From Eubacterium ventriosum (lineage in GTDB: Bacteria; Bacillota; Clostridia; Lachnospirales; Lachnospiraceae), in NCBI RefSeq assembly GCF_025150745.1, contig NZ_CP102282.1:2429501-2493500 (forward strand): 64,000 nt of DNA, written 5' to 3'. The translations under genes were made by a program, and so were the position numbers. The notes under the pieces are model-generated. The model had not been told where the DNA came from, did no database searches, and saw only the letters and a list, made by a program, of their open reading frames with translations. Shown piece by piece: positions 12,311-29,442 of this stretch. Within the stretch, counting starts at the first letter, position 1; each line of letters opens with the position of its first letter.

Positions 12311-12343
12311 AACGTGCAAAGCCTATCTCTGACCCTGCACGTT
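12311..12343 (-). terminator. Terminator downstream of the MerR-YbjQ operon
   Basis: AACGTGCA and TGCACGTT form the stem; on the minus strand it is followed by TTTTTTC. It separates the MerR/YbjQ and LysR-remnant region from the flavodoxin gene. Confidence 0.8.
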
Positions 12344-12394
12344 TATTATATCTCTTTTATTCAATTATTACCAATACCTATATTAAATCATAGT

Positions 12395-12502: not shown

Positions 12503-12585
12503 TAATAGCTTCCTTTCGGTTTATGATTTGTTTATCACAGCTTTTTTACAATTGGTAATCAATTACTATGTGTCTGATTATTTAA

Positions 12586-12903
12586 TCACTTGTCTATAAT
12601 TTTTACGGCAGTACCATAGGCAATCACTTCTGCTGCTCCACTCATTACCTGTGATGAACCATATTTTACACCAATTACTGCATCTGCGTCCAGTTCTTTT
12701 GCCTCATCAACCATTCTCTTAACAGCAATCTGTCTTGCCTCATTTAACATTTCCGTATAACCTACGATTTCTCCACCTACAAGTGTTTTCATTCCTGCCA
12801 TAAAATCGCGACCTACATTTTTGGTCTGAACAACTGTTCCTTTTACCATACCCAATGCTTCTATTTCCGTTCCCGGAATATAATCAATACTTAGCAGCTT
12901 CAT
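12586..12903 (-). CDS. YbjQ/UPF0145 family protein
   Basis: Start at ATG 12903 after GGAGGAG, giving MKLLSIDYIPGTEIEALG. The 105-residue protein shows the family blocks GMVKGTVVQTKNVGRDF, AGMKTLVGGEIVGYTEMLNE and the C-terminal DADAVIGVKYGSSQ. It is a small, probably multimeric cytosolic protein of unknown function, sometimes annotated as a heavy-metal-binding domain. The gene overlaps the end of the merR-like gene by 20 bases, so they are translationally coupled. Confidence 0.9.
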   Translation of the reverse strand: MKLLSIDYIPGTEIEALGMVKGTVVQTKNVGRDFMAGMKTLVGGEIVGYTEMLNEARQIAVKRMVDEAKELDADAVIGVKYGSSQVMSGAAEVIAYGTAVKIIDK

Positions 12904-13525
12904 CTTCTTCTCCTCCATCTATTTCTCTTATTCTGCCTATTAAAACACCAATGATACATACAATGATAACAACCGGAATTGCTACTAAAACTATCAAAAG
13001 TCCTAAAGGAATTGGATCAACACTATTTCCCCACAGGAACATTCCAATAAGAAATATCATAAATACTATCATTACTGCTCCTCCGATTATTGCTCCCATT
13101 TTCTTCTTCATGTGGATGTCAATTTTGCTAATGTTCACAAAATCTATGCCCTCCTTCTCCATGTTTTCCATCTTCTCAAGCCATTCATCTGTTTTCAGAT
13201 TATTAAGTTCACATTTCTGATTTATGATTTCTTCGGTAAGATTATACATTTTGGTAAGGTTAGATTTTTGTTTTTCCAAAACATCTAAATATTTTTCCAA
13301 ACAATTTTCCAAAGTAACATTGTCATTTAATACTGATTTTATGTCTTCTACTGATATTCCGATTTTTCTTAAAAGTTTTATTTTTTTCAAAACTTCTATA
13401 TTATCCTGATGGTATTCTCTGTAACCATTATCAGCTCTTTCAGGTGTAAGTAATCCCTGACTTTCATAAAATCTAATATTTTTGCTTGTTATTCCAACTA
13501 GTTCTTCAACCTGTTTAATCTTCAC
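12884..13525 (-). CDS. MerR-family regulator with C-terminal membrane segments
   Basis: Residues 1-70 are a MerR helix-turn-helix (MKIKQVEELVGITSKNIRFY, then GLLTPERADNGYREYHQDNI). A coiled-coil follows (residues ~75-125). Residues ~140-205 form two membrane segments (KKMGAIIGGAVMIVFMIFLI and LGLLIVLVAIPVVIIVCIIG). MerR proteins are usually soluble dimers, so this is a membrane-anchored version. The effector is unknown; no Cys cluster for metal binding is visible. It is coupled to ybjQ. Confidence 0.88.
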   Translation of the reverse strand: MKIKQVEELVGITSKNIRFYESQGLLTPERADNGYREYHQDNIEVLKKIKLLRKIGISVEDIKSVLNDNVTLENCLEKYLDVLEKQKSNLTKMYNLTEEIINQKCELNNLKTDEWLEKMENMEKEGIDFVNISKIDIHMKKKMGAIIGGAVMIVFMIFLIGMFLWGNSVDPIPLGLLIVLVAIPVVIIVCIIGVLIGRIREIDGGEEDEAAKY

Positions 13526-13680
13526 CGGATAGCCTCCATCTTCTTGTTTTTAATAACCCGATTCACTTATAACTGTATCGATACGCCTTATTTATACAGC
13601 TTCCATAAGGTGGAAGGTCAATACTTTTTTAATTCTAATAATATTATTATATACCATACATTACAACATATAAAGAAAAA

Positions 13681-13701
13681 AGAGCCGGGCTCCCCAACTC
13701 T
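13681..13701 (-). terminator. Terminator of the ABC importer operon
   Basis: On the minus strand AGAGTTGGG-GAG-CCCGGCTCT folds with two G-T pairs and is followed by TTTTTTCTTT. It ends the importer transcript just after the last permease gene. Confidence 0.85.
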
Positions 13702-13722
13702 TTTCTCAACAAATTATGATTT

Positions 13723-14553
13723 TTATCCTTTTACTGCTCCAACTACAAGACTCTCCTGTACCTGTTTGCTTAAAAAGAAATAAATAATGATAGTAGGTAA
13801 TGTTGCTATAACCATACCTGCTCCTATTAATCCCCATTCTGTTGAATACTGACCTGCAAGTGACATTATTCCTACTGGAAGTGTTCTATACTGGTCACTG
13901 TCAACAAAAGTATTGGCTAACATTAATTCATTCCATGTTCCAAGAAATGTAAATATTGAAGCTGTGGCAATAGCCGGCTTAACCATTGGGAATATTATTT
14001 GAATAAAACATTTAAATATTCCACAGCCGTCAATATATGCGGCTTCTTCCATTTCTCTTGGTATTCCTTTATAGAAACCAACTAATATCATAATACTCAT
14101 TGGCAGAGCTCCTGCTATATATGGAATCATTAGTCCAAGATAACCTCCCTTTAACCCAAGTTTGTCAAGAATCTGGAATAATGGAAGTAATGCTGCCTGA
14201 GCAGGTATCATTATTCCTATCATAAATAATCCATAAACAGCATTCTTTAGTTTCCATGTCATTCTGGCAATGGCGTATGCTGCCATTGAAGATATTATTC
14301 CTGCCACAACAACGGTAACTACAGAATAAAAAACTGAATTAAGGAAATAACGAATTAAGTTAGATGAACTTAATGCTGTTATATAATTATCCCATCTCCA
14401 AACTTTTGGAAGTCCTATTACATTCTCGCCAAATATTTCCGTATTGCTTTTTAATGAAAAAGTTATAAGCCAGTATAAGGGAAACAACTGAGTCAAAGCA
14501 ATTAAAAGCAACACTATAAATTTTATCTTGCCTATAATATTTTTCTTCTTCAT
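13723..14553 (-). CDS. Carbohydrate ABC transporter permease (MalG type)
   Basis: 276 residues with six membrane segments. The start of the N-terminal helix and PLYWLITFSLKSNTEIFG are typical of MalG-type permeases. The cytoplasmic coupling loop EEAAYIDGCGIFKCFIQIIF (residue ~170) matches the EAA motif that contacts the ATPase. It is the third gene of the binding protein-permease-permease operon. No ATPase gene is present, so the importer probably uses a shared MsmX/UgpC-like ATPase encoded elsewhere. Context (GH81 enzyme, shared promoter element) points to beta-1,3-gluco-oligosaccharides as cargo. Confidence 0.93.
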   Translation of the reverse strand: MKKKNIIGKIKFIVLLLIALTQLFPLYWLITFSLKSNTEIFGENVIGLPKVWRWDNYITALSSSNLIRYFLNSVFYSVVTVVVAGIISSMAAYAIARMTWKLKNAVYGLFMIGIMIPAQAALLPLFQILDKLGLKGGYLGLMIPYIAGALPMSIMILVGFYKGIPREMEEAAYIDGCGIFKCFIQIIFPMVKPAIATASIFTFLGTWNELMLANTFVDSDQYRTLPVGIMSLAGQYSTEWGLIGAGMVIATLPTIIIYFFLSKQVQESLVVGAVKG

Positions 14554-14562
14554 TGTACCCTC

Positions 14563-15447
14563 CTATACTGCTGAAACATTTTGTTCTGCTTTTTTAAACA
14601 ATCTGTTTACAATAAATGTAAATATTAAACATTCGATTACTATAAAAAATGCCTGAGCACTTCCATAACCATATAATCCTTTTCTAAACAAATTGTTATA
14701 CATTAATGTTGCCGGAACCTCACTTATATGATTTGGTCCACCACCTGTCATTACATATACTAAATCAAAGGCTCTAAGTGAACCTGTAATTGCAAAGATT
14801 ACACAAGTCTTTATTACAGGAACCAGCAGAGGTAACGTAATTTTTCTATAAACCTGCCATGTTGATGCTCCATCAATCTGTGCAGCTTCATAGTAATCTG
14901 TTGAAATTGATTTAATTCCTGCGTAAAAAATAATCATGTGATAACCTATATATTGCCATACAGATGGAATTAACACGGTCATAAATGCATTTTTTGTAAG
15001 CCATGAGTGTTCATATTCCGGTACAAAATATCTTATTACAGTATTTATTACACCATAATCACTGTTAAACATTTTAAGCCATAATTGTCCAATAACCATA
15101 CTTGAAATTACAACAGGTATAAAATATATAGTTCTAAAAAAGTTATCCCCTTTTACACCTTTTGATAATATCAAGGCTAATATTAATGATATTGGTAACT
15201 GAATAAATAATGATGCTGCCACTAATATTAATGAATTTTTTACCGCCTGTGGAAAATATCTGTCGGAAGTAAATAATTCAATATAGTTTTTTATTCCAAT
15301 AAATGTTTTACTTCCAATCCCATTGTATTCAAAAAAGCTATATACTCCTGATGTTATCAATGGGATTAGAGTAAATCCTAAAAATAAAAGTAGCGCCGGT
15401 AATATGAAAATTAATATGTATTTTTTATTTCCAAGCATTTTTTCCAT
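14563..15447 (-). CDS. Sugar ABC transporter permease (MalF type)
   Basis: Start at ATG 15447 after AGAGGTGGG. About 294 residues with six membrane segments. N-terminal LPALLLFLGFTLIPLITSGV and the EAA loop YEAAQIDGASTWQVYRKITL (residue ~195) identify a MalF/UgpA-type subunit that pairs with the next gene. The gene lies 9 bases upstream of the MalG-type gene and about 20 bases after the binding-protein gene. The late segment FDLVYVMTGGGPNHISEVPA is a family hallmark. Confidence 0.93.
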   Translation of the reverse strand: MEKMLGNKKYILIFILPALLLFLGFTLIPLITSGVYSFFEYNGIGSKTFIGIKNYIELFTSDRYFPQAVKNSLILVAASLFIQLPISLILALILSKGVKGDNFFRTIYFIPVVISSMVIGQLWLKMFNSDYGVINTVIRYFVPEYEHSWLTKNAFMTVLIPSVWQYIGYHMIIFYAGIKSISTDYYEAAQIDGASTWQVYRKITLPLLVPVIKTCVIFAITGSLRAFDLVYVMTGGGPNHISEVPATLMYNNLFRKGLYGYGSAQAFFIVIECLIFTFIVNRLFKKAEQNVSAV

Positions 15448-15469
15448 AACACTACCCACCTCTTACTTC

Positions 15470-16783
15470 TTATTTGCCGTTGATTGCCGCTTTATGTTCA
15501 TCAATAAATTCATTTATATCTGCGCCATCTGCAAATAATGTCTGTACCTGTTCGTTATGAACTGCAGCAGGTTCTGCTTCTAAAGATGTATCCCATGCAA
15601 GAACACCCTGTTTTCCTTCTGCCAATAAATCTTTAATCTGAATGAATAATGGATTTAACTTACTTTCATCAGCTTTTGTTGTCCATCCACTGAATCCTGA
15701 ACCTGTTTCGTATGATGCAACACCCATTTTTTCATTAATGTAAATACAGAATTTTGCTGCTTCTTCTTTGTACTTAGTATTGTTGTTTACCCAGAATGAT
15801 TCAACATAACCACCACAGTAATCTGTTGATTCTCCATTTCCGTCAGAAATCATAGGAATCTTTAATGCTACAACTTCTTCAGGGTTAATTGTTGCTGCTT
15901 CATCTGTATATACGTTGTTCGCAAACCAGCTTCCCATAATTCTCATTGCTGCCTTGCCGTTTTCAAATGCTGCATTGGCGTCATCATTTCCCTGCTCTAA
16001 TGGATTTTCTCCAAAAGCTCCTAATTTGTATAAGTCTGATACTTTCTGTGCTGCCTTCTTATATCCCTCGTCACCAAATTCTTTTTTACCTGATAGCATT
16101 TCATTAACACCTGTAGCTCCTACTTCTCTCAAAGCTAATGCCTGGTATACAAAAGCTGCATTCCATCCGTCCTTTGCACCTGCTGCTAATGGTGTAACGC
16201 CGTCAAGAGTTTTTAATTTCTTAACTGCATCTACTAATTCATCATATGTTTCAGGAAGCTTAGCACCTGCCTTGTCAAATAATGTTTTGTTGCAGAATAA
16301 TGTCATATACCATGAGAACATTGGCGTTGAATATAATTTTCCATCATATTCAAATGCTGATGTTGAACCTTCCACCATTCTTGATTTAACATCATCTGTT
16401 AAGTAATCATCTAATGCCATTACTTTTCCTGCGTCAACTAATTTCTTAGCTGTACCTGCACCCCACCAGTAGAATACATCAATGCCCTTTGCATCTCCTG
16501 CAAACTCTGCATTAATCTTTGTCTTGTATGCTTCAGTATCCAATGTTTCTGTTTTGATTTTTACATTAGGATTATCTTTTTCGTAAGCCTTAACTGCTTC
16601 CTCATATCTACCCTTAAGTTCATTTGTGTCATTTGACCACTGATGCCATACATTTAATGTGATAGTTCCGTCATCCTTTTTTCCCTCACTCTTACTATCA
16701 CTGTTTCCGCATCCTACCATAGAGAATGCCATTGTTGATGCTAACGTAACCGCTAACACTTTCTTAAAGAAATTCTTTTTCAT
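15470..16783 (-). CDS. Extracellular sugar-binding lipoprotein of the ABC importer
   Basis: The 437-residue precursor has a lipoprotein signal ending AFSMVGCG (Cys25). The mature part is a family 1 solute-binding protein (ITLNVWHQWSNDTNELKGRY at residue ~40, FYWWGAGTAKKLVDAG at ~105). It would capture oligosaccharide outside the cell and hand it to the two permeases encoded directly downstream. The start follows GAGGAGGAAACAAA. The promoter carries the shared element at 16814-16878. Tryptophan-rich stretches suggest sugar stacking. Confidence 0.94.
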   Translation of the reverse strand: MKKNFFKKVLAVTLASTMAFSMVGCGNSDSKSEGKKDDGTITLNVWHQWSNDTNELKGRYEEAVKAYEKDNPNVKIKTETLDTEAYKTKINAEFAGDAKGIDVFYWWGAGTAKKLVDAGKVMALDDYLTDDVKSRMVEGSTSAFEYDGKLYSTPMFSWYMTLFCNKTLFDKAGAKLPETYDELVDAVKKLKTLDGVTPLAAGAKDGWNAAFVYQALALREVGATGVNEMLSGKKEFGDEGYKKAAQKVSDLYKLGAFGENPLEQGNDDANAAFENGKAAMRIMGSWFANNVYTDEAATINPEEVVALKIPMISDGNGESTDYCGGYVESFWVNNNTKYKEEAAKFCIYINEKMGVASYETGSGFSGWTTKADESKLNPLFIQIKDLLAEGKQGVLAWDTSLEAEPAAVHNEQVQTLFADGADINEFIDEHKAAINGK

Positions 16784-16813: not shown

Positions 16814-16878
16814 AGTATACTTTAGTACAACACCTATCTCAATTTAATATTTTGACCAAAAAAGGTTAAAAATTTTAC
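16814..16878 (-). promoter_or_regulatory. Promoter and shared regulon element of the importer operon
   Basis: On the minus strand a -35 box TTGAGA (16837-16842) and -10 box TATACT (16814-16819) are 17 bases apart. Directly upstream of the -35 lies a conserved ~35-base element (16843-16878) beginning GTAAAATTTTTAACC and containing GGTCAAAA. The same element precedes three other genes of the locus in the same place. Confidence 0.75.
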
Positions 16879-16899
16879 TAAAATTTCTAACCTTTTTTT
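16857..16899 (-). terminator. Terminator of the kinase-regulator operon overlapping the operator
   Basis: Six bases after the response-regulator stop the minus strand reads AAAAAAAAGGTTAGAAATTT, then pairs with AAAATTTTTAACCTTTTTT. The stem GGTTAGAAATTTT/AAAATTTTTAACC plus T-run is a good intrinsic terminator. Its right half is also the regulon element of the next promoter. Confidence 0.7.
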
Positions 16900-16904
16900 T
16901 AACA

Positions 16905-18455
16905 CTATGCTCTATATTCTTTTACTGTTTGTCCTGTCTGCTTTTTAAAGCAAATGCAGAAATAGTGGGAGTCTTTAAACCCTATTTTTTCCGCCACCTC
17001 ATACACTTTAAGCTCCGTCTCCTTAAGAAGTTTTTTGCTTGCTTCTATTCTTTTCTGGGAAATATATTCAATAAAACTTACACCATATGTTTTCTTAAAT
17101 TCCCTACTTAGGTAACTGTCATTTATGTATAAATCGGAGGCGACCTTTTTAAGTGAAAGTTCCGGGTTATACAGATTTCTGTTAACGTAATCCAGTGCAT
17201 CTTTTATTACATTTTTTCTCTTACATGAACGCTTTTTTTCATGATAATCACAAACCTGTTTAATGTATTTTATAACACACTCTGATGTATCATCTATGGT
17301 TCTTATTTCCCTAACATTTTGGAAAACTTCTTCCTCACTTGCCAATTGATATATGTTTGTTCCATATTTGTTTAATGTAGAGCTTGCCCTTAGGATTATT
17401 GTCATTGCCATTAATTTAAGATATTCCTCATCAGGTATTTTTTCTGCTTTAATTATTTCTGTGTAATCAGAAACATATTTTAGTACTTCTTCTCTTCTAC
17501 AATTAATTATTGCATCTGAAAATTCATCCCAGTCTATTTCCTTTTTTGAACTGTTTTTCTTCATTATTTCCTGATACTCAGAAAAGGTAACAACCTTATT
17601 TCTGCCTAATAATACAGAAACACCTATAGCTTTGTTTGCCTGACCATATGCTGCCGGTATTCCATTAAATTCACTGTTTTTTTCACTAACACCAATAGTT
17701 GCCGTTATTCCCATATTGTTTAATTTATTATGCAAATCATTAGCGTAATCAATGCATTTACTTACGTCTGTTTTTGTGAAAAACATTACAATGTTATGCA
17801 TAAAATGTATAAAAGAAAGGCTATTCTCATTATTTTGCTTTTGTATAAATTCATACACTTTTTTATAATTTTGATTTTCTTGGGCATCTTTGATTTTTAC
17901 ATTTATGCAAACACATCCATCAACTAAATCACTGCAATTATATGTTTCCAATTTTTTTGTAGCTTCCTCTTCTCCTATACGATTTTCTACTAATCTAAGA
18001 AGAAAGCTCTCCCTTAATATATCGTAATTTTTTTCCGCACTTTCTTTAAGCTTTGCTACTTTTGATTCCTCTTCATTGACTTTTGCTATTTCAGTTTTAA
18101 TTTTAGTCATAACTTCACTTATTTCTTTTATGTTGACAGGCTTTAAAAGAAATTCGTCAACTCCAAGCTTAATTGCTTTTCTTGCATATTCAAATTCACG
18201 AAATCCGGTTACAATTACTACCCTGCATTTAGGATTTTTTTGTAGCAATTTTTCCGTAAACTGCAATCCGTCCATTCCAGGCATATTAATATCCGTAATT
18301 ACAATATCAACATTGTGGTAGTTTATATATTCCAAGGCATCCTCTCCTGATGCAGCCTCTCCTACAATATTAAAACCGTTTTCTTCCCAATTATATCCTT
18401 TACGGATTAAAACTCTTTCTAACTTTTCATCGTCAACCAATAATACATTTAACAT
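16905..18455 (-). CDS. AraC-type response regulator (YesN-like)
   Basis: 516 residues. Residues 1-120 are a receiver domain: DDEKLERVLIRKG acidic pocket, phospho-acceptor Asp in VDIVITDINMPGMDG (~residue 55) and LLKPVN with the conserved Lys (~105). A middle region (~130-400) is a helical signalling segment. Residues ~415-516 are two AraC helix-turn-helix motifs (LSLKKVASDLYINDSYLSRE and GFKDSHYFCICFKKQTG). It is cotranscribed with the histidine kinase three bases upstream. Its likely targets are the four promoters that share the regulon element, which include its own operon. Confidence 0.94.
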   Translation of the reverse strand: MLNVLLVDDEKLERVLIRKGYNWEENGFNIVGEAASGEDALEYINYHNVDIVITDINMPGMDGLQFTEKLLQKNPKCRVVIVTGFREFEYARKAIKLGVDEFLLKPVNIKEISEVMTKIKTEIAKVNEEESKVAKLKESAEKNYDILRESFLLRLVENRIGEEEATKKLETYNCSDLVDGCVCINVKIKDAQENQNYKKVYEFIQKQNNENSLSFIHFMHNIVMFFTKTDVSKCIDYANDLHNKLNNMGITATIGVSEKNSEFNGIPAAYGQANKAIGVSVLLGRNKVVTFSEYQEIMKKNSSKKEIDWDEFSDAIINCRREEVLKYVSDYTEIIKAEKIPDEEYLKLMAMTIILRASSTLNKYGTNIYQLASEEEVFQNVREIRTIDDTSECVIKYIKQVCDYHEKKRSCKRKNVIKDALDYVNRNLYNPELSLKKVASDLYINDSYLSREFKKTYGVSFIEYISQKRIEASKKLLKETELKVYEVAEKIGFKDSHYFCICFKKQTGQTVKEYRA

Positions 18456-18458
18456 ATG

Positions 18459-20267
18459 TTATTTCTCCATTTTAATCTTTTTGATTGTGACAATTATCTC
18501 CGTTCCTACACCAACTTCACTTTGTATAATTACAGGATTTTCTATTCCGTATGTAAGACGAATTCTCTGTATTAAACTATATAAACCAAATCCTGACTTT
18601 CCGGTAACTGTTCTTCCTGCAAGTATATCTTCTATTTTTTCATCACTCATTCCCACTCCATCGTCTGATACTATGAAAATTATTTCATCTTCCTGCTCAA
18701 ATACCTTAATTTCAATATTACCTCCTTCACCATTTAAGCCATGATGTACAGCATTTTCTACCAGCGGCTGTAACAGTAATTTAAGCACTTTTTCATGTTT
18801 TACAACATCTTCTATATCATAGCTAATTGCAATCTGGTTTTCATATCTGGTGTTTAAAATTGTAATGTAGCTTTCAATACAACCGATTTCATCTTCTACG
18901 CTTATATAATCCAGTCCACTGTTTAAACTATTTTTGTAAAAGTTACCCAATGCCTGTATCATCTGAAAGCATTTTTCATTCTCTTCCATTAAAGCCAATG
19001 CCGAAATTGCATCTAAAGTATTATACAAAAAATGAGGATTTATCTGAGCGTAAATTATGTCTAACTTTCCTTTTGCAATTATTCTTTCCTCATCCTTTAC
19101 TCTCTTCATTAATGCCTTAACTGATAAAATCATATGATTGAAAACTTTTCTTAAATTCGTTATTTCGTTATCATAGTCATCCACAGGCATTGTAATAAAT
19201 TCCCCATTTTCTACTATCTGCATATGATTTTCTATTTTTCTTAAAGGTTTAAAAATAAGATACGTAAGTAGCGTGGAGCACAAAAATACAAAAATAATAT
19301 TAATTCCCATAATTATTGCAATAATCGTTGAATAATACGGTGCCAAAGATGTAATATCGTCCATTGAAAAAACTCCTACCAGTTTCCAATCCTGTATTCC
19401 CATATCCTGACAGGCTACAATACACTCTTCTCCATTATTTTTTACTTCTTTGTATCCTTCATTAATATTTTCTGCTACTTTCGTATACTTTTTGAAATCT
19501 CTTTTTTCCTCCTGAGGTTTTATTACATAATTTCCTTTTGAATCAATAATATAAAACTGATTCTTTGAATCTTCACTTACCTGATTAAAATATCCCTGAA
19601 GAACAGTATTATCAAAAGTAATAAGCAGTGTTGCTAAAGGCTTATAATCTTTTTTGTCTAAAATCTGCCTTACATAACACAAATAGTTATTATTTTCATA
19701 GTATTCTATTGTGCCATCACTTCCCTTATAAAAAAATCCATTGCCACCGGCACTTTGCATTTTCTTATACCAGTCAGCTCCCTGGATGTACTTATTAACT
19801 TTTCTTGGTGTTCTTTTATATGAACTGTAACAATTGTTATATTGATCAAATATATATACTCCTGAAACATAATCTCCTGATAAAATCATGTTAAAAAGAC
19901 TTTTGGTTATGTTCTTCTGATAATTTAAATCAATATTAGCTGAATTAATTTGTCTTAGAGAATCCTGTACAATATCATCAAAATATAGATACGTAGAAAG
20001 CTGCGTAACATTTTCAAACACTAATGCTAAGTTTCCCTGAAGTGCGCTAACTGTCTGAACACCTGCTTTTCCGATTTCTTCCTTAGTATACTTATTATTA
20101 ACAGCCCATATCATTGAAAACGTCATAACAAATGATAGTAGCAAAATTAATATATATGTAAATATAATCTGTGTTCTTATTTTGGATTTTTTCCAATATT
20201 TTATAATTTTTTTCAACTTTTTTCTGCTCCATAATTTTTTTGTAAATCCGTATCCTTCTATACTCAA
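18459..20267 (-). CDS. Sensor histidine kinase (YesM-like)
   Basis: 602 residues. A membrane segment at ~35-55 and another at ~305-330 bracket an extracellular sensor (~56-300). A HAMP domain follows (FKPLRKIENHMQIVENGEFI), then the His-kinase block INPHFLYNTLDAISALALME with the phospho-acceptor His (~residue 415), and an ATPase domain (LLLQPLVENAVHHGL, VSDDGVGMS, GKSGFGLYSL). YesM-type kinases sense extracellular sugars directly or through binding proteins. The start is a TTG at 20267 with only a weak ribosome site, and a later TTG (~residue 18) is possible. The receiver partner is encoded three bases downstream. Confidence 0.93.
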   Translation of the reverse strand: MSIEGYGFTKKLWSRKKLKKIIKYWKKSKIRTQIIFTYILILLLSFVMTFSMIWAVNNKYTKEEIGKAGVQTVSALQGNLALVFENVTQLSTYLYFDDIVQDSLRQINSANIDLNYQKNITKSLFNMILSGDYVSGVYIFDQYNNCYSSYKRTPRKVNKYIQGADWYKKMQSAGGNGFFYKGSDGTIEYYENNNYLCYVRQILDKKDYKPLATLLITFDNTVLQGYFNQVSEDSKNQFYIIDSKGNYVIKPQEEKRDFKKYTKVAENINEGYKEVKNNGEECIVACQDMGIQDWKLVGVFSMDDITSLAPYYSTIIAIIMGINIIFVFLCSTLLTYLIFKPLRKIENHMQIVENGEFITMPVDDYDNEITNLRKVFNHMILSVKALMKRVKDEERIIAKGKLDIIYAQINPHFLYNTLDAISALALMEENEKCFQMIQALGNFYKNSLNSGLDYISVEDEIGCIESYITILNTRYENQIAISYDIEDVVKHEKVLKLLLQPLVENAVHHGLNGEGGNIEIKVFEQEDEIIFIVSDDGVGMSDEKIEDILAGRTVTGKSGFGLYSLIQRIRLTYGIENPVIIQSEVGVGTEIIVTIKKIKMEK

Positions 20268-20371
20268 CTATAGCCTATCTTTTCAGGTTGTACAACTTAA
20301 AACCAGACATTGAAATTTTTTATTTTTTTTTTAGGTAATTTTTTCTTTTCCGTACTTATCTTGTTAATTAT

Positions 20372-20436
20372 ATATTACTAATTTATTTGAAACGTCTCAA
20401 TTGATTTTTTTGACTTAAAAAGGTTAAAATTTTTAC
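20372..20436 (-). promoter_or_regulatory. Promoter and shared element of the kinase-regulator operon
   Basis: TTGAGA (20395-20400) and TAATAT (20372-20377) are separated by 17 bases on the minus strand. The ~35-base regulon element lies directly upstream (20401-20436), starting GTAAAAATTTTAACC and including AAGTCAAA. This suggests autoregulation. Confidence 0.75.
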
Positions 20437-20512
20437 TAAGAAATCTGATTGGTAAAAATATCTACCTTTTTGTTTAAAAATACTCAACATATCCTTATAA
20501 ATAACAGGAAGA

Positions 20513-20536
20513 GAGAGCCTGGCATGCCAGACTCTC
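20513..20536 (-). terminator. Terminator of the GH81 gene
   Basis: GAGAGcCTGGC and GCCAGaCTCTC form the stem. On the minus strand CTCTCTTCCTGTT follows. It lies 27 bases after the GH81 stop. Confidence 0.65.
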
Positions 20537-20562
20537 CCCTGAGAAGTGTATATATTGTATTT

Positions 20563-23500
20563 TTACTTAATTGTAACTTTTACTTTCTTGTAAACACCAT
20601 TTTGTGCATATGCATAAATTGTGCACTTACCTCTCTTTAGGGCTGTTATTTTACCACGCTTTGACACTGTAGCTATTTCAGGATTACTTGATTCGAAACT
20701 TACCTTTCTATGTTTTTTAATCTTAACATTTTTGCTGTCTGCAATCTGTTTTACTTTAATCTTGAATTTTTTTCCAAGTAAAAGTTTTACTTTAGTCTTA
20801 TTTAATTTTAAAGATTTACAATTTCCTACTTTTCCACCTTTAGTTGCTACATGAATCAATTTTGATGTAGCCAAGACCTCACCTTTATCATTCTGTGCAA
20901 CTACAAGATATTTGTAATATTTACCTTTCTTTAATTTATTAGCTGTAAATGTCTTCTTGCTTACTTCTTTAATCTTCTTATACGATGTGCCACATTTAGC
21001 TCCATATATAACATACTTTGTTGCTCCGGACATCTTCTTCCAAACAAGCTTAACTGACTTCTTAGTTGTTTTCTTTACTCTAACACTAAGTTTTGCAAAT
21101 GTAGAATTTGCAAAATCCTTATCATCCTTCTTTTCCAGAATTTCTTTTTCCATCTGTTCAGCTGTTTTGTAAGTGCTTGATGTTTCCACAGATGTTACTG
21201 CACCATTATTTGTAGTTGTTTCCTGTTCTGTATCTTTCGTTGTTGATACTGCCGTTGTTGTTGGCGCTACCGTTGTTGTTGGTGCTTCTGTTGTTGGCGC
21301 TACCGTTGTTGTTGGTACTACCGTTGTTGGCGCTGCTGTTGTTGGCGCTGCTGTTGTTGGCGCTACCGTTGTTGGTGCTGCTGTTGTTGGTGCTACCGTT
21401 GTTGGTGGCACTACCGTTGTTGGTGGCGCTACCGTTGTTGTTGGGTGATTTCCATCATCAACATAGTTATACATAATAGATGTTATTCTTGAGCGTTTGT
21501 TTCCTTTTACAGTTGCAACACCTATTTCATATTCTCCTGATCCTTTTGTAAATGCTGTGTAATCTAAATTAACATTTCCATCAACTACATTTTTAACGCA
21601 AACTCCATTAACGTAAACATTATATGAATCTGCTCCATCTGCTCTTGCCCACGCAAAATAGTATGGTAACTGTGCATTTCCTGCCCATACAAGCCCTTCC
21701 GGTGCCTTAATACTTTCATCAACACTTGGATCTACTTCCGGAGATTCTGTTGTTGAGGCTATCGTCGTTGTTGTGGCTACCGTTGTTGTTGGCGCTGGTT
21801 TTGTCTCAGTTGACACTTTTTCAACATCAGATATTTTTGAAATAACCCAATCCGTTAATTCTTTGTCATTAATATTGAATCTAAATACTACATACTGCTC
21901 GCCTGTCACTTCCTGATCAACAATTTTTTTAAATCCAATATCTGTCTTATTCATTGGATATCCTGGACAATTTCCACCATTTGTTTCTACTGCCTGCTTA
22001 TAAAAAGCTTCTGCCTCTGTTTTTCCATTAAGTATTTCATAATATACAATTGCACTGTTGACATCGTCTTTTGCAATGAAATTTAACTTTCCATTTTCAT
22101 CAACATATGCTCCTCTTTGTATTCTTGATTCAGGGCTTTTTTTAATATCATAATATAAGCGAAGAACTAATTTCCCTTCTGCTATTACTATTCCCTTAGT
22201 CACTGAGTTTTCGCTAAGAATATAACCATCATACTCCTTTTCCTCTGCAGAAACCTCTGTACCGATTATAGCTTCTATTCTCTCAGTATCTTCAGTTACA
22301 AGGTCATATCCGCTTTCATCTTCTTTCTGTTTATAATACTCTACCGTATACTGGGATATAGTTGACTCATCAAGGAACTTTGCATACAGTACTAAATTTT
22401 CTGCTGTAGAATCTGTTATTTCCGTTATCTGATTCTGATAATTATCATCTGTATACCAACCAAGGAACTTATAACCTTCTCTCGTTGGATTATTAAGTTT
22501 TATTGAACTTCCGAATCTATAACCGTTAGGGTTTGCATCATTGTTTGTTCCATCGTTTAATTCATACTGAATTGTATAGCTATTACGTTTATAATACGCC
22601 TTAACCGTAGCTGTATTGTCTTCTTTTACAACCGTTGTAAGTATATTATTGCTATTTCCATTATCATATGTAAATCCCGTAATGTTCTCTGGTTCATACG
22701 TATAACTTGTAGTTCCCTCTTTTACGCTAACCTGTTTTTCCTGCTTTTCGTATCCGGTTCCCTCATAATTTTCAAGATATATTTCCACGTTAACTTTTGA
22801 AGTATTTCCTAGCAATTCACTTTCATCAACATTTGGATTTGAACCGTTCCCTGTTTTTGGTCCAACATAGCTTGAATTAGCTGGTACATCAACATATGTA
22901 TTATCTGTAAAATATACTCTCTTTACTTCATCAGTATGATTTTCTGCAACATATGTTTTGTTTCCATCCTTGCTCAATACTAGTGAAAGTGGCTCACTGC
23001 CTGTAATGGAAAAATCCTGATTTCCATACTTCTGTAATGATGTTATATATGAAAGAGTATGTGCCCTTGATTCACCATTTTCAACTTTTCCACTATCACT
23101 CATATCCCATCTTGCAAGGGCACCATCCGGATCATAATAAGCATAATACTCTGCTACTACATCCTGATTAGTCTTTGGATCTGTAAGCATGTCAACTTTA
23201 TTGAAATTATTGCAAATCTGTTCTTTATTAGAAACAAAATGTTTCCACTGATTACTGTTTTCATCTATACTGTCTACAACGTTTTTGACTTTATCCTTAT
23301 ATTTTCCCATATAAAGTGTTGCTCCGGAAATTGGTAACATTGTAATTGTAGTTACTTCAATAGAGTTTTCTGTCCACCATGCTGTATGATCATAGCGACC
23401 ACCAAATAATCTTGTAACTGTCTGAATATTATAATTACCTGCATCTTTATATTTTTCTGTGAAAATTTCATTATGTACATCATAATAATAGTCTTCAATT

Positions 23501-25452
23501 GCAGCTATTTCAGTTGTATACATGTAAATACCCGCATCTCTGATTGTAGTATTTCCAACTGCTTCTCCCCATAAGATTAATGATGCCCATGCATTAATTG
23601 CCTCAGATGATGATTCCTGGTTATTTCCACCTGAAAGACCACCCTTCTTGTCAACTAACTCTCCATTCTCATCATATTCATAATTAGCCACACCTGATGC
23701 CCATGAATGACCTTCATAAATATCAAAGTTTCTAAGGAATGGATACTTAGTAGGACTGTTAGCATTATAACCTTTTCCGTCACGATTAACATTAGCAATA
23801 TCACCAATCATCTCATAAACCATTCCGCCCCATTCTTTAGCCCACTGTGGATCTTTCATTGCAACTGCTGCAGCTGCCTTAATCCAATATCCATAATGGA
23901 AATGATGGTCATTAACCTGCTTGTCTGAATCATATGATGATGGATAGCCTATTAATGTTCCATAATTTTCATCATAATAGAAATAGTCATCCTTGTTATC
24001 ACCACTTATATATGCCTGATATGGATCAAACCAGAATTCAAGATAGTTTTCTACTCCTTCTACCATTTCATTTGTTATATTCTTCATATCCGCATCATCA
24101 CCATCCAGCTGACCTGAAAGCCATATTGCATCTGATAATGTATTAAGATTCTTTCCTATCCAATATGTGTCAAATCCACCATACTGACCTTCCAAATTGC
24201 AAATCCACTTAGGATCTTCTTTGTTTTTTCTATAATCATAAAGATATCCTAACTGCTGCTTAATATTTCCAATTGTATTTTCGTCAGTTGTAACCGGCAA
24301 TGAAGATAAAATTCCGTTGTATTGCATTTCAGTTACATAACTTGTTCCAACAATCGTTTTCATTGTTCCACGAATTGTTTTGTATGTATAGTTAGTATAT
24401 TTAGAATTAGAATAACGCCACTGATGAGGATATAGTGCCATAATAGTATCTCCACCTGTGCTTCCATTCTCCATATTCTTTGTTGTTACATTATATTTAG
24501 TAACGACCTTAGAAGAATTCTTTAAATATTCCCACTGTACCTTTGTATCTGTAATAAAGTTAAATGCATATTTTTCATATAAAGAAAATGCTTCATTGCT
24601 TCCATCAGGAAGTATTGCTACAGACATATAGTTTTTTCCTGAAGGCATCTTTGCTGTAAGTTTTCCACCTGCATTAATCCATGTTGTACCTGATGGTGCT
24701 GCTAACATGTAATAATGTATTTTTCCATCTTTTTTATTTTTTAAACTTACACCGATTATATTTGAAGATGTTGTATTTTTTACTATTGCAAGGTCTGTTG
24801 CACCTGCACCAAGTGAAATTGTTGGTGTAACATTATCAAATGTATAATAGGCATATGGAGTTCCCTTTGCAATAATTGAACGCATCGAACTATTGCCTGC
24901 ATTATCTGCCATTACAATTTCATAACTCCAATCTGTTGTTTTATCCACCTTAGCATCTTTAGCTGAAAAATTTTCACCACCAACAACCATTTCTACTGTA
25001 TCATCATTTAATAAACTTTCTACTGTTGGTTCACCGTCAACATAAGAAGTACTATCTACTACAGCCGGTGATGCCATCTGCATACCATTACTTGCAGCTC
25101 TATATGCAAGAGGATGTGCATACAATGACTCTGAATACTGGTCAAATACAACTGAACTTGCCCAGTCATTTGTTGGAACAGTTCCAACTGTCTCTTTATA
25201 ATTGTCAGTTAAATAAACCTTTGATGGAGGTAATGATTCTTTTCTATCTGTCCAGTTTACTCCCCAGTCGTCAGTTCTAACTCCAAAGACTTCTTTCTTA
25301 TATCCGCCTTTGTCAATCATTACCGAATTGTTCTCATCAAAAAAATCTCCTGTTGCCGCTTTTATGTTTATTGCAGTAAATGGTATGCTTGTTGCTAACA
25401 TTGTAATCGAACAACATAATGCTATTGATTTTTTTAGTGCTCTTTTTTTCAT
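20563..25452 (-). CDS. Secreted GH81 endo-beta-1,3-glucanase, multidomain
   Basis: Start at ATG 25452 after AAAGGAGATTAAA, giving 1629 residues and a clear signal peptide (LKKSIALCCSITMLATSIPF). Residues ~60-730 are the family GH81 catalytic domain: PTNDWASSVVFDQYSESLYA near the start, NDHHFHYGYWIKAA (~516) with the acidic residue of the active site, and GGNNQESSSEAINAW (~610) with the catalytic Glu pair. The enzyme cuts internal beta-1,3-glucan bonds (laminarin, curdlan, callose, fungal wall). Then come a Listeria-Bacteroides repeat (~965-1030), a MucBP-like repeat (~1030-1105), an unclassified ~90-residue module (~1240-1330), a Thr-rich linker (~1330-1420) and FN3 plus Ig-like group 2 domains (~1447-1628), which probably hold it on the wall. 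No LPXTG is present. Confidence 0.93.
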   Translation of the reverse strand: MKKRALKKSIALCCSITMLATSIPFTAINIKAATGDFFDENNSVMIDKGGYKKEVFGVRTDDWGVNWTDRKESLPPSKVYLTDNYKETVGTVPTNDWASSVVFDQYSESLYAHPLAYRAASNGMQMASPAVVDSTSYVDGEPTVESLLNDDTVEMVVGGENFSAKDAKVDKTTDWSYEIVMADNAGNSSMRSIIAKGTPYAYYTFDNVTPTISLGAGATDLAIVKNTTSSNIIGVSLKNKKDGKIHYYMLAAPSGTTWINAGGKLTAKMPSGKNYMSVAILPDGSNEAFSLYEKYAFNFITDTKVQWEYLKNSSKVVTKYNVTTKNMENGSTGGDTIMALYPHQWRYSNSKYTNYTYKTIRGTMKTIVGTSYVTEMQYNGILSSLPVTTDENTIGNIKQQLGYLYDYRKNKEDPKWICNLEGQYGGFDTYWIGKNLNTLSDAIWLSGQLDGDDADMKNITNEMVEGVENYLEFWFDPYQAYISGDNKDDYFYYDENYGTLIGYPSSYDSDKQVNDHHFHYGYWIKAAAAVAMKDPQWAKEWGGMVYEMIGDIANVNRDGKGYNANSPTKYPFLRNFDIYEGHSWASGVANYEYDENGELVDKKGGLSGGNNQESSSEAINAWASLILWGEAVGNTTIRDAGIYMYTTEIAAIEDYYYDVHNEIFTEKYKDAGNYNIQTVTRLFGGRYDHTAWWTENSIEVTTITMLPISGATLYMGKYKDKVKNVVDSIDENSNQWKHFVSNKEQICNNFNKVDMLTDPKTNQDVVAEYYAYYDPDGALARWDMSDSGKVENGESRAHTLSYITSLQKYGNQDFSITGSEPLSLVLSKDGNKTYVAENHTDEVKRVYFTDNTYVDVPANSSYVGPKTGNGSNPNVDESELLGNTSKVNVEIYLENYEGTGYEKQEKQVSVKEGTTSYTYEPENITGFTYDNGNSNNILTTVVKEDNTATVKAYYKRNSYTIQYELNDGTNNDANPNGYRFGSSIKLNNPTREGYKFLGWYTDDNYQNQITEITDSTAENLVLYAKFLDESTISQYTVEYYKQKEDESGYDLVTEDTERIEAIIGTEVSAEEKEYDGYILSENSVTKGIVIAEGKLVLRLYYDIKKSPESRIQRGAYVDENGKLNFIAKDDVNSAIVYYEILNGKTEAEAFYKQAVETNGGNCPGYPMNKTDIGFKKIVDQEVTGEQYVVFRFNINDKELTDWVISKISDVEKVSTETKPAPTTTVATTTTIASTTESPEVDPSVDESIKAPEGLVWAGNAQLPYYFAWARADGADSYNVYVNGVCVKNVVDGNVNLDYTAFTKGSGEYEIGVATVKGNKRSRITSIMYNYVDDGNHPTTTVAPPTTVVPPTTVAPTTAAPTTVAPTTAAPTTAAPTTVVPTTTVAPTTEAPTTTVAPTTTAVSTTKDTEQETTTNNGAVTSVETSSTYKTAEQMEKEILEKKDDKDFANSTFAKLSVRVKKTTKKSVKLVWKKMSGATKYVIYGAKCGTSYKKIKEVSKKTFTANKLKKGKYYKYLVVAQNDKGEVLATSKLIHVATKGGKVGNCKSLKLNKTKVKLLLGKKFKIKVKQIADSKNVKIKKHRKVSFESSNPEIATVSKRGKITALKRGKCTIYAYAQNGVYKKVKVTIK
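21190..21460 (-). repeat. Thr-Pro-rich linker repeat in GH81
   Basis: Codes for repeats of TTVAPTTAAP type, about 90 residues. The DNA is a near-perfect tandem of GTTGTTGG-containing units. It is a flexible linker and a slippage-prone stretch. Confidence 0.85.
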
Positions 25453-25504
25453 TTTAATCTCCTTTTTGTAATCTAAAAACGAAATTTTCATTTCTTCTTA
25501 CATA

Positions 25505-25568
25505 ATAATATACTTTTTCTTGTTCTCTCTCAATCTAATTTTTTAACAAAAAGGGTTAAAATTTTTAC
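25505..25568 (-). promoter_or_regulatory. Promoter and shared element of the GH81 gene
   Basis: TTGAGA (25528-25533) and TATTAT (25505-25510) are 17 bases apart on the minus strand. The regulon element (25534-25568) lies directly upstream, starting GTAAAAATTTTAACCC. Confidence 0.75.
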
Positions 25569-25576
25569 TTTTTACA

Positions 25577-28500
25577 CTATTTTATGTTAAATAACTGGAA
25601 GTCATATAATCTAAGTGTTCCAACACCTTCATCAGGTGTAAATATTTTAATCATTATATATCTTGCCTTTTGGTTTCCTATATTAAATGAAGATACTGCA
25701 CTGTTGTTGGACGGTTGATAATCTACTGATGTCCATTCATTTCCATCGTTGGATACAAGAACTTCCCATTCAGTAGTATTTCCAAAACCTTCCTTACTTC
25801 TTGTATTGTAAAGCGTGTATGTATTAAACTCTTTTTCCTGACCCAAATCAATTTTTACCCAATGCTTTACGCCATTTAATTTGTACTCACCACTAGTTAC
25901 ATTAGAACTTGTTGCACACCATTTTGTATTTAAATCTCCATCTATTAATTTTTGTGCATTCTCGTTATCGTTTGTATATCCGGAGCAATCATACACCTTT
26001 CCTCCAAGACAAAGATTTGTTCCTTCTGTAACTGTATTATTTAACTGAGTTGCTGTTTTATTTCCATGTAGTTTCTCACCAACCATTGGATATTCAGGAT
26101 TTGGTATTCCGTCAATATTTTCAGTAAGCCAATTATCTTCATAATCAGCAAATCCTTTAAATGTCCATGTACCCTGCTGCAACTCTTCTACATATCTCTC
26201 TCTTAAAGACTCAATACAATCATAACCTGTAATCTGTTTTACTACATTATTAAATGGTGTTGTTGTATTATAAGGATCATCTGTGTAAGTACTTCCGGTG
26301 TTATTGTCTTTAATTAATTTATTTATACTATCAATAAGTCCATATTTTAATGTTCCATCTGCATTCTTTCTTGTTGGATACTTTGAGTCCATATATGCAA
26401 AGAACCATTTATTATTTCCGTACTGTTCATAACCCCAGTCCTGAAGTGATGTATCCGTAGCTTCATAAACCTGTACATATTTAGGATTTGACCAATGGAA
26501 GTATCTGAACCCTCCATAATTTGCCATATTTTCTGTCCACCACGCTACATCATCACCATAATTAAGTTTTCCACTATATTGCTGTACTGAATGAGTTATT
26601 TCATGTGAGAAAAATCCTATATCTTTCGGATGACTGTTAGCGTACTTAGTTGAAACACATACTGTAGTTCCCTGACAATATGCTACGCCATCATAATTGT
26701 TATCAGCCTTAAATGTAATAGTTGTAGGTTCTGTTCCATTACCCCATCTCTGGTATAATCTTGGATAACTGTTGTAGAACAGTTTTGTAAGTTCTTCCAA
26801 ATAACCATCTACTGTTACATCTTTCCAATCGCCTGTAAACAAAATATCATATTTACTTGGGCTTATATAGGCTCCTTTCAATGATATTTCTGACAACTGT
26901 ACTGAACTTCCATATCCCGCTTTAACATCTAATTTGTAATATCTATATGAACCAACCTTATCCACTGTGTAATTGTATGTCTTAAAGTTAACATCTTCCA
27001 TTCCACTATTATTTACAGTGTCAATTTTTTCCCAATTAGTTCCATCTGATGATCCATATAATATCCATGATTTTGGATTTCTGCCCTTATATGCTTCATT
27101 ATCATTAGCTGTTGTTAAACTGTAACTATATAATGTTGTATCCTGTTTCATTTTCCAGGCAATGCTAAACTGATTTGAAAATTCAAATAATTTTGATTCT
27201 TTACGTCCATCAAATAAATTAAATGGTGTTTCATCACCATTACCTTTTGCAGTTGTAGCACTTGCAAAAATGCTGTCATAGTAAGAAGATAAATCTTCTC
27301 CCATTTCCTTATCAACATCTGCCACATCACCATTAAGTGAAATTTCTGCCAACTGGAATCCATAATAATTTGTTCCATTTCCTTCAAACTGTATTAAATA
27401 ATACTGATAGCTTTCCTGAATATCTGTTTCATATGTATAAGATTTTGAATTTTTTGCTTCAATTCCACTATCTGTTACAGTATCTATCTGTGTCCATGAT
27501 GTTCCATTATTTGAGCCATACAAATGCCATGATTTTGGATTTCTATAAGAATAAGTCTCACTATCATTGGCTGTTGTTAATGTATATTTTTTCAATATAA
27601 TTGGCTTTTTCATCTGCCATGATATTCTTAGTGGAAATCCATCTGATGTACATAACTTTGTATTTATATCTCCATCAAAAAGTTTTTCCATTCCTTCATT
27701 TGCACTTGTTTTAATGCTAGTTGAACTTGAAGTATCTATCTGCCTCATATAATTGTCAACATTTATGTTCTTAGGATGAACTTCTGTTTCCGGCTCTTCA
27801 TAAAACTCTTTTTGTGTAGTTGTTGTAACTTCTGTTATTTTTTCTGTTGGAGCCACTGTTGTTACATGTTGTCCTTCCTTATTATAAGTATACTTGATTG
27901 ATGTTGAATTAGATTTTTTATTGCCTTTTACTGCTGCAACTGAGATTGTATATTCTCCTGAACCTTTTTCAAATACACTTTTATCCAAATTAACTGAACT
28001 TACTTCAACATTTGTTACATATTTATTATCTACATAAACATTATATGAATCAGCTCCATCTGTAGCTGCCCAAGCAAAATAATATGGTAATTCCTTATTT
28101 CCTGCCCATACAAGTCCTTCCGGTGCTTTAATGTTTTCATCTACTTCCTGGCTTGGAGCTGTTGGCGCTATTGTTGTTTGAATTTCTGTTGTTGCTATTG
28201 TTGTTGGCATTACTGTTGTTGTAGTTTTCACTGTTGTAGCGTCTGTTGGTGTATTTGTTACTTTTTCCGATTCTGTTGTAACAAGCTGACCATCTGGCGA
28301 AAATGTATATTTTAATGATGTTGCAACAGATACTTTATTACCTTTTACTGCTGCAACTGAGATTGTATATTCTCCTGAACCTTTTTCAAATACAGAGGCA
28401 TCTAAGTTAACCGCTCCATCTACCACATTTTTAATACATTTTCCATCTACATAAACATTATATGAATCTACATCACTTGCCTTAGCCCATGCAAAATAAT

Positions 28501-29326
28501 ATGGTAATTCTTTATTCCCAGCCCATACAAGTCCTTCCGGTGCTTTGATGTTTTCATCTACTTCCATGTCCGGAATAATTGGTGCTGTTGTTGATGCTAC
28601 TGTTGTTGGTGTCACTGTTGCTGGTGCTACTGTTGTTGGCACTACTGTTGTCGGTGCCATTGTTATTGGCATTACCGTTGTTGATGCCACTGTTGTTGGT
28701 GCTACTGTTGTCGGTGCCATTGTTGTTGGTATCGCTGTTGTTGGTATCGCTGTTGTTGGCATTACCGTTGTTGATGCCACTGTTGTTGGTACTACTGTTG
28801 TCGGTGCCATTGTTGTTGGCATCACTGTTGTTGGTTCTACTGTTGTCGGTACTGTTGTTACTCTTGCCTCGGTTGTAGATACTGTTGAAGATTTCTCTGT
28901 TGTTTGAACCGTAGTTTTTGATGTGTTTTCTATATTCTTTGGTGTTTCTACGTTTTTAGAAATATTTTCTTTATTATTTCCCTTAACTGTCACTTTAAGA
29001 ATATATTTTTTCTTTCCATATACAGCCTTTATTTTTGCTTTACCAATTTTTTTACCTTTAATCTGTATTTTCTGTTTATATTTTCCTTTTTTCTTTATTG
29101 ATATATTCTTTTTTCCTGATATAATTTTCCATACTACTTTATATTTTGCTTTTTTTAATTTTACTGTTTTCTTCTTTCCAACATTTACTGAAATTTTAGT
29201 TTTGCTTAACATTGATTTTTTCGATGCAGCATTAACTGTAATTGAGCCATTAGGCACTAAACATGTCATTAATGACATTGTTACTGCAACTGCTATTGCC
29301 TTTTTTATTATTACTCTCCTTTTCAA
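25577..29326 (-). CDS. Secreted BSP-like metallopeptidase with discoidin domains
   Basis: 1249 residues with signal peptide (AIAVAVTMSLMTCLVPNG). Order: an Ig-like Lys-rich domain (~35-120), a Thr-rich linker (~135-255), two copies of the ~90-residue module also found in GH81 (~257-345 and ~399-485), two F5/8 type C (discoidin/CBM32-like) domains (~528-668 and ~675-822), a basic secretory protein domain (~825-1075) and a third F5/8 domain (~1085-1249). The BSP domain contains SHEITHSVQQ (~909), an HExxH zinc site, and AWWTENMANYGGFRYFH, which match plant basic secretory proteins, a putative peptidase family. It likely attacks protein or glycoprotein on the same polymer as the neighbouring glucanase; that is inference. 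Confidence 0.85.
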   Translation of the reverse strand: MKRRVIIKKAIAVAVTMSLMTCLVPNGSITVNAASKKSMLSKTKISVNVGKKKTVKLKKAKYKVVWKIISGKKNISIKKKGKYKQKIQIKGKKIGKAKIKAVYGKKKYILKVTVKGNNKENISKNVETPKNIENTSKTTVQTTEKSSTVSTTEARVTTVPTTVEPTTVMPTTMAPTTVVPTTVASTTVMPTTAIPTTAIPTTMAPTTVAPTTVASTTVMPITMAPTTVVPTTVAPATVTPTTVASTTAPIIPDMEVDENIKAPEGLVWAGNKELPYYFAWAKASDVDSYNVYVDGKCIKNVVDGAVNLDASVFEKGSGEYTISVAAVKGNKVSVATSLKYTFSPDGQLVTTESEKVTNTPTDATTVKTTTTVMPTTIATTEIQTTIAPTAPSQEVDENIKAPEGLVWAGNKELPYYFAWAATDGADSYNVYVDNKYVTNVEVSSVNLDKSVFEKGSGEYTISVAAVKGNKKSNSTSIKYTYNKEGQHVTTVAPTEKITEVTTTTQKEFYEEPETEVHPKNINVDNYMRQIDTSSSTSIKTSANEGMEKLFDGDINTKLCTSDGFPLRISWQMKKPIILKKYTLTTANDSETYSYRNPKSWHLYGSNNGTSWTQIDTVTDSGIEAKNSKSYTYETDIQESYQYYLIQFEGNGTNYYGFQLAEISLNGDVADVDKEMGEDLSSYYDSIFASATTAKGNGDETPFNLFDGRKESKLFEFSNQFSIAWKMKQDTTLYSYSLTTANDNEAYKGRNPKSWILYGSSDGTNWEKIDTVNNSGMEDVNFKTYNYTVDKVGSYRYYKLDVKAGYGSSVQLSEISLKGAYISPSKYDILFTGDWKDVTVDGYLEELTKLFYNSYPRLYQRWGNGTEPTTITFKADNNYDGVAYCQGTTVCVSTKYANSHPKDIGFFSHEITHSVQQYSGKLNYGDDVAWWTENMANYGGFRYFHWSNPKYVQVYEATDTSLQDWGYEQYGNNKWFFAYMDSKYPTRKNADGTLKYGLIDSINKLIKDNNTGSTYTDDPYNTTTPFNNVVKQITGYDCIESLRERYVEELQQGTWTFKGFADYEDNWLTENIDGIPNPEYPMVGEKLHGNKTATQLNNTVTEGTNLCLGGKVYDCSGYTNDNENAQKLIDGDLNTKWCATSSNVTSGEYKLNGVKHWVKIDLGQEKEFNTYTLYNTRSKEGFGNTTEWEVLVSNDGNEWTSVDYQPSNNSAVSSFNIGNQKARYIMIKIFTPDEGVGTLRLYDFQLFNIK
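28560..28920 (-). repeat. Thr-rich linker repeat in the BSP-like protein
   Basis: About 120 residues of TTVVPTTVAP-type units; the DNA is a tandem of imperfect 12-15-base GTTGTTGG units. Same style as the linker in the neighbouring glucanase. Confidence 0.8.
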
Positions 29327-29377
29327 AATTCTTCCTCCTTTTTTATAGTAAAATACATACTTATCTACATAAATTAC

Positions 29378-29442
29378 AATATAACATTTTTTAGCTTTGT
29401 TTTCAATTCAATTATTTTACTTAAAAAGGTGAATTTTTTTCC
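29378..29442 (-). promoter_or_regulatory. Promoter and shared element of the BSP-like gene
   Basis: TTGAAA (29401-29406) and TATATT (29378-29383) are 17 bases apart on the minus strand. The regulon element directly upstream (29407-29442) is the most diverged of the four: CACCTTTTTAAG replaces AACCTTTTTAAG and the outer A/T tract is shifted. Confidence 0.7.

Follow-up and report, generated by a model that had tools for sequence, protein, structure and literature searches.

The stretch of DNA analysed here, hereafter the window, comprises 64,000 nt of Eubacterium ventriosum (assembly GCF_025150745.1, contig NZ_CP102282.1, positions 2,429,501-2,493,500), and the genes and sites within it are given in window coordinates. 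Its minus strand holds a cassette made of a sugar ABC (ATP-binding cassette) importer, a two-component system and two large proteins, with a paired DNA element abutting the promoters in front of them. The importer comprises a solute-binding protein (15470..16783; PF01547), the only one of the cassette, whose closest solved structure, judged on sequence only, is 4g68, and two permeases (14563..15459 and 13723..14553; both PF00528). No transporter ATPase was found by Pfam among the ten proteins scanned in or beside the cassette. The response regulator (16905..18455) joins a receiver domain (PF00072), a variable middle part and a C-terminal AraC-type helix-turn-helix (HTH; PF12833, PF00165), and its translation displays the phospho-acceptor region ITDINMP and the expected acidic pocket. 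Adjacent to it lies the gene of a sensor histidine kinase (18459..20267; start codon, TTG, uncertain), to which Pfam and the translation assign a dCache_1 outer domain, His_kinase (NPHFLYNT) and HATPase_c. The kinase operon contains no sensor-dedicated solute-binding protein, as a three-component relay would have. Farther upstream are a GH81-domain protein of 1642 aa from a beta-1,3-glucanase family (20563..25491; PF17652, 1.9e-36), whose true start is likely an in-frame ATG that follows AAAGGAG downstream of the first ATG, and a BSP-like protein of 1249 aa (25577..29326) with three F5/8 type C stretches. The latter also carries a HEITH motif, which we take to resemble that of basic-secretory-protein peptidases; no Pfam match to that family was found.

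Four minus-strand promoters, S1 to S4, precede the importer, the kinase-regulator operon, the GH81 gene and the BSP-like gene. They had been reported in a first-pass annotation of this DNA, and their coordinates, -35 boxes (TTGAGA in three, TTGAAA in one), -10 boxes and 17-bp spacers are exactly as described there. At each promoter, a 15-bp half-site, GTMAAAATNNTNACC, occurs twice in direct orientation, with a spacing of 22, 22, 21 and 22 bp from S1 to S4 and linkers of 7, 7, 6 and 7 bp. In S1 (16814..16878), half-site 1 is GTAAAATTTTTAACC (16878-16864) and half-site 2 is GTCAAAATATTAAAT (16856-16842), followed by the -35 box TTGAGA (16842-16837) and the -10 box TATACT (16819-16814). The half-sites of S2 (20372..20436), through which the two-component operon would regulate itself, occupy 20436-20422 and 20414-20400, with TTGAGA at 20400-20395 and TAATAT at 20377-20372. 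Those of S3 (25505..25568) lie at 25568-25554 and 25547-25533, before TTGAGA (25533-25528) and TATTAT (25510-25505), and those of S4 (29378..29442) at 29442-29428 and 29420-29406, before TTGAAA (29406-29401) and TATATT (29383-29378). The two half-sites of a promoter agree at 10, 8, 9 and 10 of 15 positions, and the mean agreement peaks at the 21-22-bp spacing (9.25); the second-best value among offsets 15-49 was 8.25, one base further.

A-tracts lie immediately upstream of the -35 boxes, and in all four promoters half-site 2 and the -35 box share one base, the last of the former and the first of the latter, which bears out the earlier statement that the element adjoins this box. On the other hand, the 17-bp core then proposed as the shared unit is exact at S2, but differs at two positions in S1 and S4 and carries a 1-bp deletion in S3, which the scan missed. 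Calling it degenerate at the fourth site was therefore imprecise, and the core is not a unit of its own: it runs from the last bases of half-site 1 across the linker into the first bases of half-site 2. A further pair with 22-bp spacing (20452..20488, plus strand) is inverted with respect to S2 and lies 15 bp from it, between S2 and a terminator-like hairpin of the GH81 gene. No good promoter was found downstream of this pair on the plus strand; it could be a second operator.

The whole architecture lies far beyond chance. A matrix trained on nine importer promoters, all from other species, and then run on the window placed the four promoters at ranks 1-4 (S1 50.3, S3 30.3, S2 28.7, S4 16.8), with the next place at 1.2, and the maximum over 200 dinucleotide shuffles of the window (13.99) stayed below S4, the weakest of the four. 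In the list made from half-sites alone in that scan, S2 does not show, since matches within 20 nt were merged and it fell together with the inverted pair. A model built from 19 relatives' sites and no others was applied to the own genome, where 150 of 4362 first-look candidates were scored. Among these, S1, S2 and S3 ranked 1 to 3 (E 3.8e-7, 1.5e-4 and 2.8e-4, the last over model positions 1-46 only), S4 ranked 5 (E 0.194) and the inverted pair 6 (E 0.217). Rank 4 is a partial match inside a gene, scoring -9.0 by the full matrix. Besides the window sites, one of the top 20 model matches exceeds 8 by the full matrix, namely L102 (13.1), which belongs to the paralogous system described below. 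L102 was also the highest outsider of a wider negative scan from which known cassette loci had been removed, L131 (23.1) being a cassette locus; six kinase-like long frames (L062, L063, L067, L068, L069, L070) were dropped from the paralogue rows. The genome scan for spread proposed at first pass thus finds its best full-length matches at the four promoters, and the element is not widespread upstream of unrelated genes. Similarly, the pattern CTTTTTN{0,3}GTNAAAN{5,12}TTGANA has six matches in 2.86 Mb, four of which are S1-S4, and its reversed control has none; the remaining two (466663 and 788959; loci L009 and L010) contain nothing above 8 by the matrix.

Simpler probes discriminate less. When half-sites were scored without promoter boxes, the five pairs of the window reached 31.2, 28.7, 24.0 (the inverted pair), 22.5 and 21.4, and 50 shuffles gave a mean maximum of 12.1. 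The 17-bp core by itself is weak evidence and not distinctive as a genome probe: with up to three mismatches it has four matches versus 0.84 expected, one of them inside the regulator gene (17142, plus strand), and 2 of 100 shuffles reach as many. A 13-mer of the core with at most one mismatch has 33 genome matches versus 25 for the reversed control, and a 39-mer consensus with three mismatches allowed finds S2 alone.

The element travels with the regulator. Among 392 genomes of the order, 24, the own one included, match the regulator at E <=1e-60, and 15 of the others do so at 346-511 bits and 37-48% identity; the next match, in G354, stands at 253 bits. Together with G354, with G562 (from 391 genomes of the class) and with G026 (from 40 relatives), these 15 make up 18 cassette genomes. 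They span several families and are not independent, since several are close to one another (G216, G116 and G357; G061 and G093). In 17 of the 18, the genes of the kinase, the regulator and the solute-binding protein form one cluster; in G093 contig ends separate them, and in G061 a chemoreceptor gene stands between cassette genes. In some relatives, chemoreceptor genes also occur within the cassette or immediately behind it (L084 7058-9004, L085 5002-6768), which suggests taxis toward its sugar. Upstream of the solute-binding protein gene, the element is present in all 18 genomes, scoring 50.5-63.0 in 14 and 23.3, 23.1, 20.4 and 13.7 in the others; the nine training genomes gave 42.9-61.7 when left out one at a time. 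Moreover, when a matrix of half-site 1 is run on the relatives' importer and phosphorylase promoters, the best second match falls at an offset of 21 or 22.

Compared with the window regulator, the 15 relatives are 47-57% identical in the HTH, 55-67% in the receiver and 24-38% in the middle part, and the recognition segment SYLSR.FK is retained, some paralogues reading SYFS.FK. The regulator form of G026 (L174 8241-9014; 257 aa) lacks the middle part, yet the element (50.5) is retained in the importer promoter of this genome; recognition of the box thus seems to do without the middle part. The own genome is the sole cassette holder among the 23 genomes of its genus that were searched: no regulator orthologue was found in the 22 genus-mates (best 1.1e-27, 25% identity), most of whose assemblies are incomplete. 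A scan of a contig collection with the regulator returned two loci with segments 32-35% identical, and no orthologue.

Our results indicate that the element is very probably the box to which the adjacent AraC/YesN-type response regulator binds; as a dimer, the regulator would activate the promoters S1-S4, its own included. The sites, their repeat geometry, their near-exclusive position in the genome and the presence of both element and regulator in 18 genomes are observed; from these we infer binding, phosphorylation, the direction of the effect and the inducer. According to the predicted sequence of events, the dCache sensor of the kinase, either by itself or together with the solute-binding protein, would detect an extracellular beta-1,3-gluco-oligosaccharide, whereupon the kinase would phosphorylate the regulator. 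Two AraC-type DNA-binding domains would then fill both direct half-sites, which a spacing of 21-22 bp, or two turns, puts on the same face of the helix, and the promoter-proximal domain would touch the -35 box and recruit RNA polymerase in a class II-type activation. As a result, the importer (S1), the kinase-regulator operon (S2, in a positive feedback), the GH81 gene (S3) and the gene of the F5/8C BSP-like protein (S4) would be switched on. Direct half-sites two turns apart, with the weaker one at the -35 box, are the textbook layout of AraC-type activators. We regard activation as the best reading because of this layout and of the parallels with regulators of Caldicellulosiruptor bescii and with XydR, as far as the available parts of both papers go (PMC8579813, PMC3572039). 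Direct activation by this regulator, autoregulation included, had been put forward in the first-pass annotation, and it fits both the placement of the sites and the joint presence of element and regulator in all 18 cassette genomes.

Several observations weigh against this interpretation. The -35 boxes are near consensus and could make an activator unnecessary. Half-site 2 is degenerate: in the relatives' importer promoters, the half-site-1 matrix gives a negative mean score at offset 21. S4 is a weak site, and the half-site pair of S3 alone (21.4) falls below the largest value of the 50 shuffles (22.1); since such scores lie near the shuffle maximum, the certainty of S3 and S4 comes partly from their promoter boxes and their position before a gene. 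A local model, R1, reaches 23.1 bits in two genus-mates without the regulator (G001, G020), like S2 and S3, and each of the 23 genus genomes has some R1 match at E 0.3. By the full matrix, those places score 4.2, and at most 7.7 over the ones fetched from the 22 genus-mates without the regulator. In G213 (L171 1500-1564), the gene of a distant solute-binding protein (29% identity) is preceded by an incomplete element-like pair, which scores only 4.2 by the full matrix. When R1 was run on 17 of the 18 cassette genomes (G116 left out), the importer site of G354, the weakest relative, was not listed at E 0.05. This genome has a GH39 gene beside the cassette, and for both reasons its member may serve another sugar. 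Finally, cross-talk with the paralogous system at L176 is conceivable, because the variant boxes there have the same geometry. This system (own genome 236000-255000) consists of a kinase-regulator pair (10945-14284), its own importer with a GH65-family gene downstream, and a 753-aa F5/8C protein. Its two variant pairs, on the minus strand at 5925 and 10822, share AAAGTTTTGTAAAAATATTCTATT, a different box in the same geometry.

That the same regulator acts on the same box mainly as a repressor, or as a repressor without inducer, is an improbable alternative. A dimer ending on a near-consensus -35 box could block polymerase, and indeed half-site 2 shares one base with this box, and the window has good -35/-10 pairs; but the relatives' phosphorylase promoters under the element have poor -35 boxes (TTTAGT, TTCTAC), and in the relatives' kinase promoters the element stands 9 bp further upstream, arrangements that call for help rather than for blocking. 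Furthermore, the AraC-type two-component regulators of C. bescii, whose tandem-repeat sites also lie upstream of promoters, are inferred activators in the portion of the report at hand (PMC8579813). A slightly smaller chance attaches to a different factor, such as another AraC-type regulator, reading the element while the neighbouring regulator controls something else. The own genome has 27 regulator-like matches, and the paralogous L176 system has a comparable 21-bp paired element ahead of both its importer and its secreted-type protein (13.1 and 5.4), but element and regulator co-occur in 18 of 18 cassette genomes, and 63 of 65 other loci (245,609 bases) contain nothing above 8, the two exceptions having turned out to be cassette loci. 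It is very hard to credit, despite the A-tracts upstream of the -35 boxes, that the element is an A/T-rich UP-type sequence contacted by the alpha subunit of polymerase without any regulator: its GT...ACC ends are conserved, it repeats at 21-22 bp, and it is found only with the cassette and is near absent elsewhere in an A/T-rich genome. The UP-type and other-factor readings were rejected on the cassette-restricted occurrence, the repeat geometry and the 18/18 co-occurrence.

The targets of the predicted regulator differ between the relatives and the own genome. In 13 of 16 relatives' loci (L075-L089, L132), the cassette is linked to a GH94 homologue of laminaribiose phosphorylase (nearest solved structure 6ggy, 990 bits), and in 8 of the 16 there is a GH161 gene (9qqk, 1081 bits); because of these linked genes, beta-1,3-glucan is the putative substrate. 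The importer subunits of the window are 66-78% identical (solute-binding protein 56-69%) to those of the phosphorylase-linked importers, while 4g68, as the nearest solved relative, leaves the ligand unsettled. The element precedes 12 of the 13 linked GH94 genes, ten at 15.1-28.4 and two weakly (5.8, 4.0), and was not found before the thirteenth, which lies downstream of the permeases in L132. Since it fronts the importer in 18 of 18 genomes and the linked GH94 gene in 12 of 13, the ancestral shared set, as read from these promoters, is importer plus phosphorylase, with autoregulation in only some genomes. Two nearly perfect half-sites with a spacing of 21 bp (pair scores 36.9-37.5) stand in the kinase promoter of L085-L087, where their distance from the -10 box exceeds that in the importer promoters by 9 bp.

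The own GH94 gene (1250011-1252650) and a GH161-like gene (1246645-1249785) lie together behind a LacI-family gene; upstream of the former there is no element (best score -10.7) and a palindrome, GAAACGTTTC, is present, and no element was found upstream of the latter either. A second GH161-like gene scores -20.1 in the 400 nt upstream. Few genomes of the order carry GH81 (5 of 392), but the own genome and two sampled genus-mates have five such genes each. Of the five own GH81 genes, the one behind S3 places an extracellular beta-1,3-glucanase under the element, and the other four, at -8.6 to -15.5 in the 400 nt upstream, carry none. Because the upstream regions of the own GH94 and GH161-like genes are free of the element, the predicted regulon of this genome extends to the outside steps and to uptake but leaves out the inside steps. 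Hence the description as a self-contained glucan regulon, first envisaged, is not supported in that form, given the phosphorylases at 1.246-1.253 Mb, the four GH81 genes and the second GH161-like gene without the element, and the ATPase missing from the ten scanned proteins. Tentatively, and with somewhat more doubt than confidence, we propose a two-component beta-1,3-glucan regulon in which the importer promoter stayed fixed as an ancient core and other targets were exchanged: the phosphorylase in the relatives; here the GH81 gene, the BSP-like F5/8C protein and the own operon, beside whose promoter an inverted pair was added, with the phosphorylases left near the LacI-family gene. If true, two unlinked sensing systems would split the outside and the inside steps of one pathway.

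Our results would supply a testable box, together with a list of predicted targets, for a two-component system for beta-1,3-glucan that turned up in several families of a single order and in one case beyond it. By way of the predicted co-regulation with laminaribiose phosphorylase, they tie the importer, whose ligand is unproven, to beta-1,3-gluco-oligosaccharides, and they may offer a case in which the rewiring of a regulon is datable by comparison.

Among known systems, araI1-I2 of the Escherichia coli araBAD promoter is alike in having two direct half-sites two turns apart, the weaker, promoter-proximal one at the -35 box. It differs in sequence and in its protein, since AraC is a one-component sugar-binding protein and the protein here is a two-component response regulator; a literature search for a paper stating an araI1-I2-type geometry found none. 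In C. bescii, AraC-type two-component systems are connected to sugar importers and have tandem repeats with large spacers, the regulators being inferred activators; in the available text, they share with our system the tandem repeats upstream of promoters, a local regulator and a CUT1 importer, but words in "laminari-" are absent from its main text (PMC8579813). XydS/XydR of Clostridium cellulolyticum pairs a kinase with a 532-aa AraC-type response regulator that activates extracellular glycan enzymes, and direct repeats and homologies were noted at its -35 boxes as well as ahead of them; unlike the system predicted here to be autoregulated, the sections at hand describe xylan-related targets and no DNA bound upstream of xydS/xydR (PMC3572039). 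CuaDSR/cuaABC of Ruminiclostridium cellulolyticum likewise joins a YesN/AraC-type regulator and a kinase to an importer and a beta-gluco-disaccharide phosphorylase, but, in the portion consulted, it has an additional sensing solute-binding protein in the operon, responds to cellobiose and is constitutively expressed as an operon (PMC10384115). The published GH161/GH94 beta-1,3-glucan phosphorylase loci combine an importer, GH94 and GH161 for beta-1,3-gluco-oligosaccharides; they are described without such a box, the words "regulator", "two-component" and "promoter" being absent from the main text as available (PMC6484121). Altogether, the domains of the regulator, the adjacent kinase, the paired half-sites at the -35 box and the conservation of the box place the system among AraC/YesN-type response regulators with a direct-repeat box. 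The switch is conventional in kind, and its swapped targets are the moderately interesting part.

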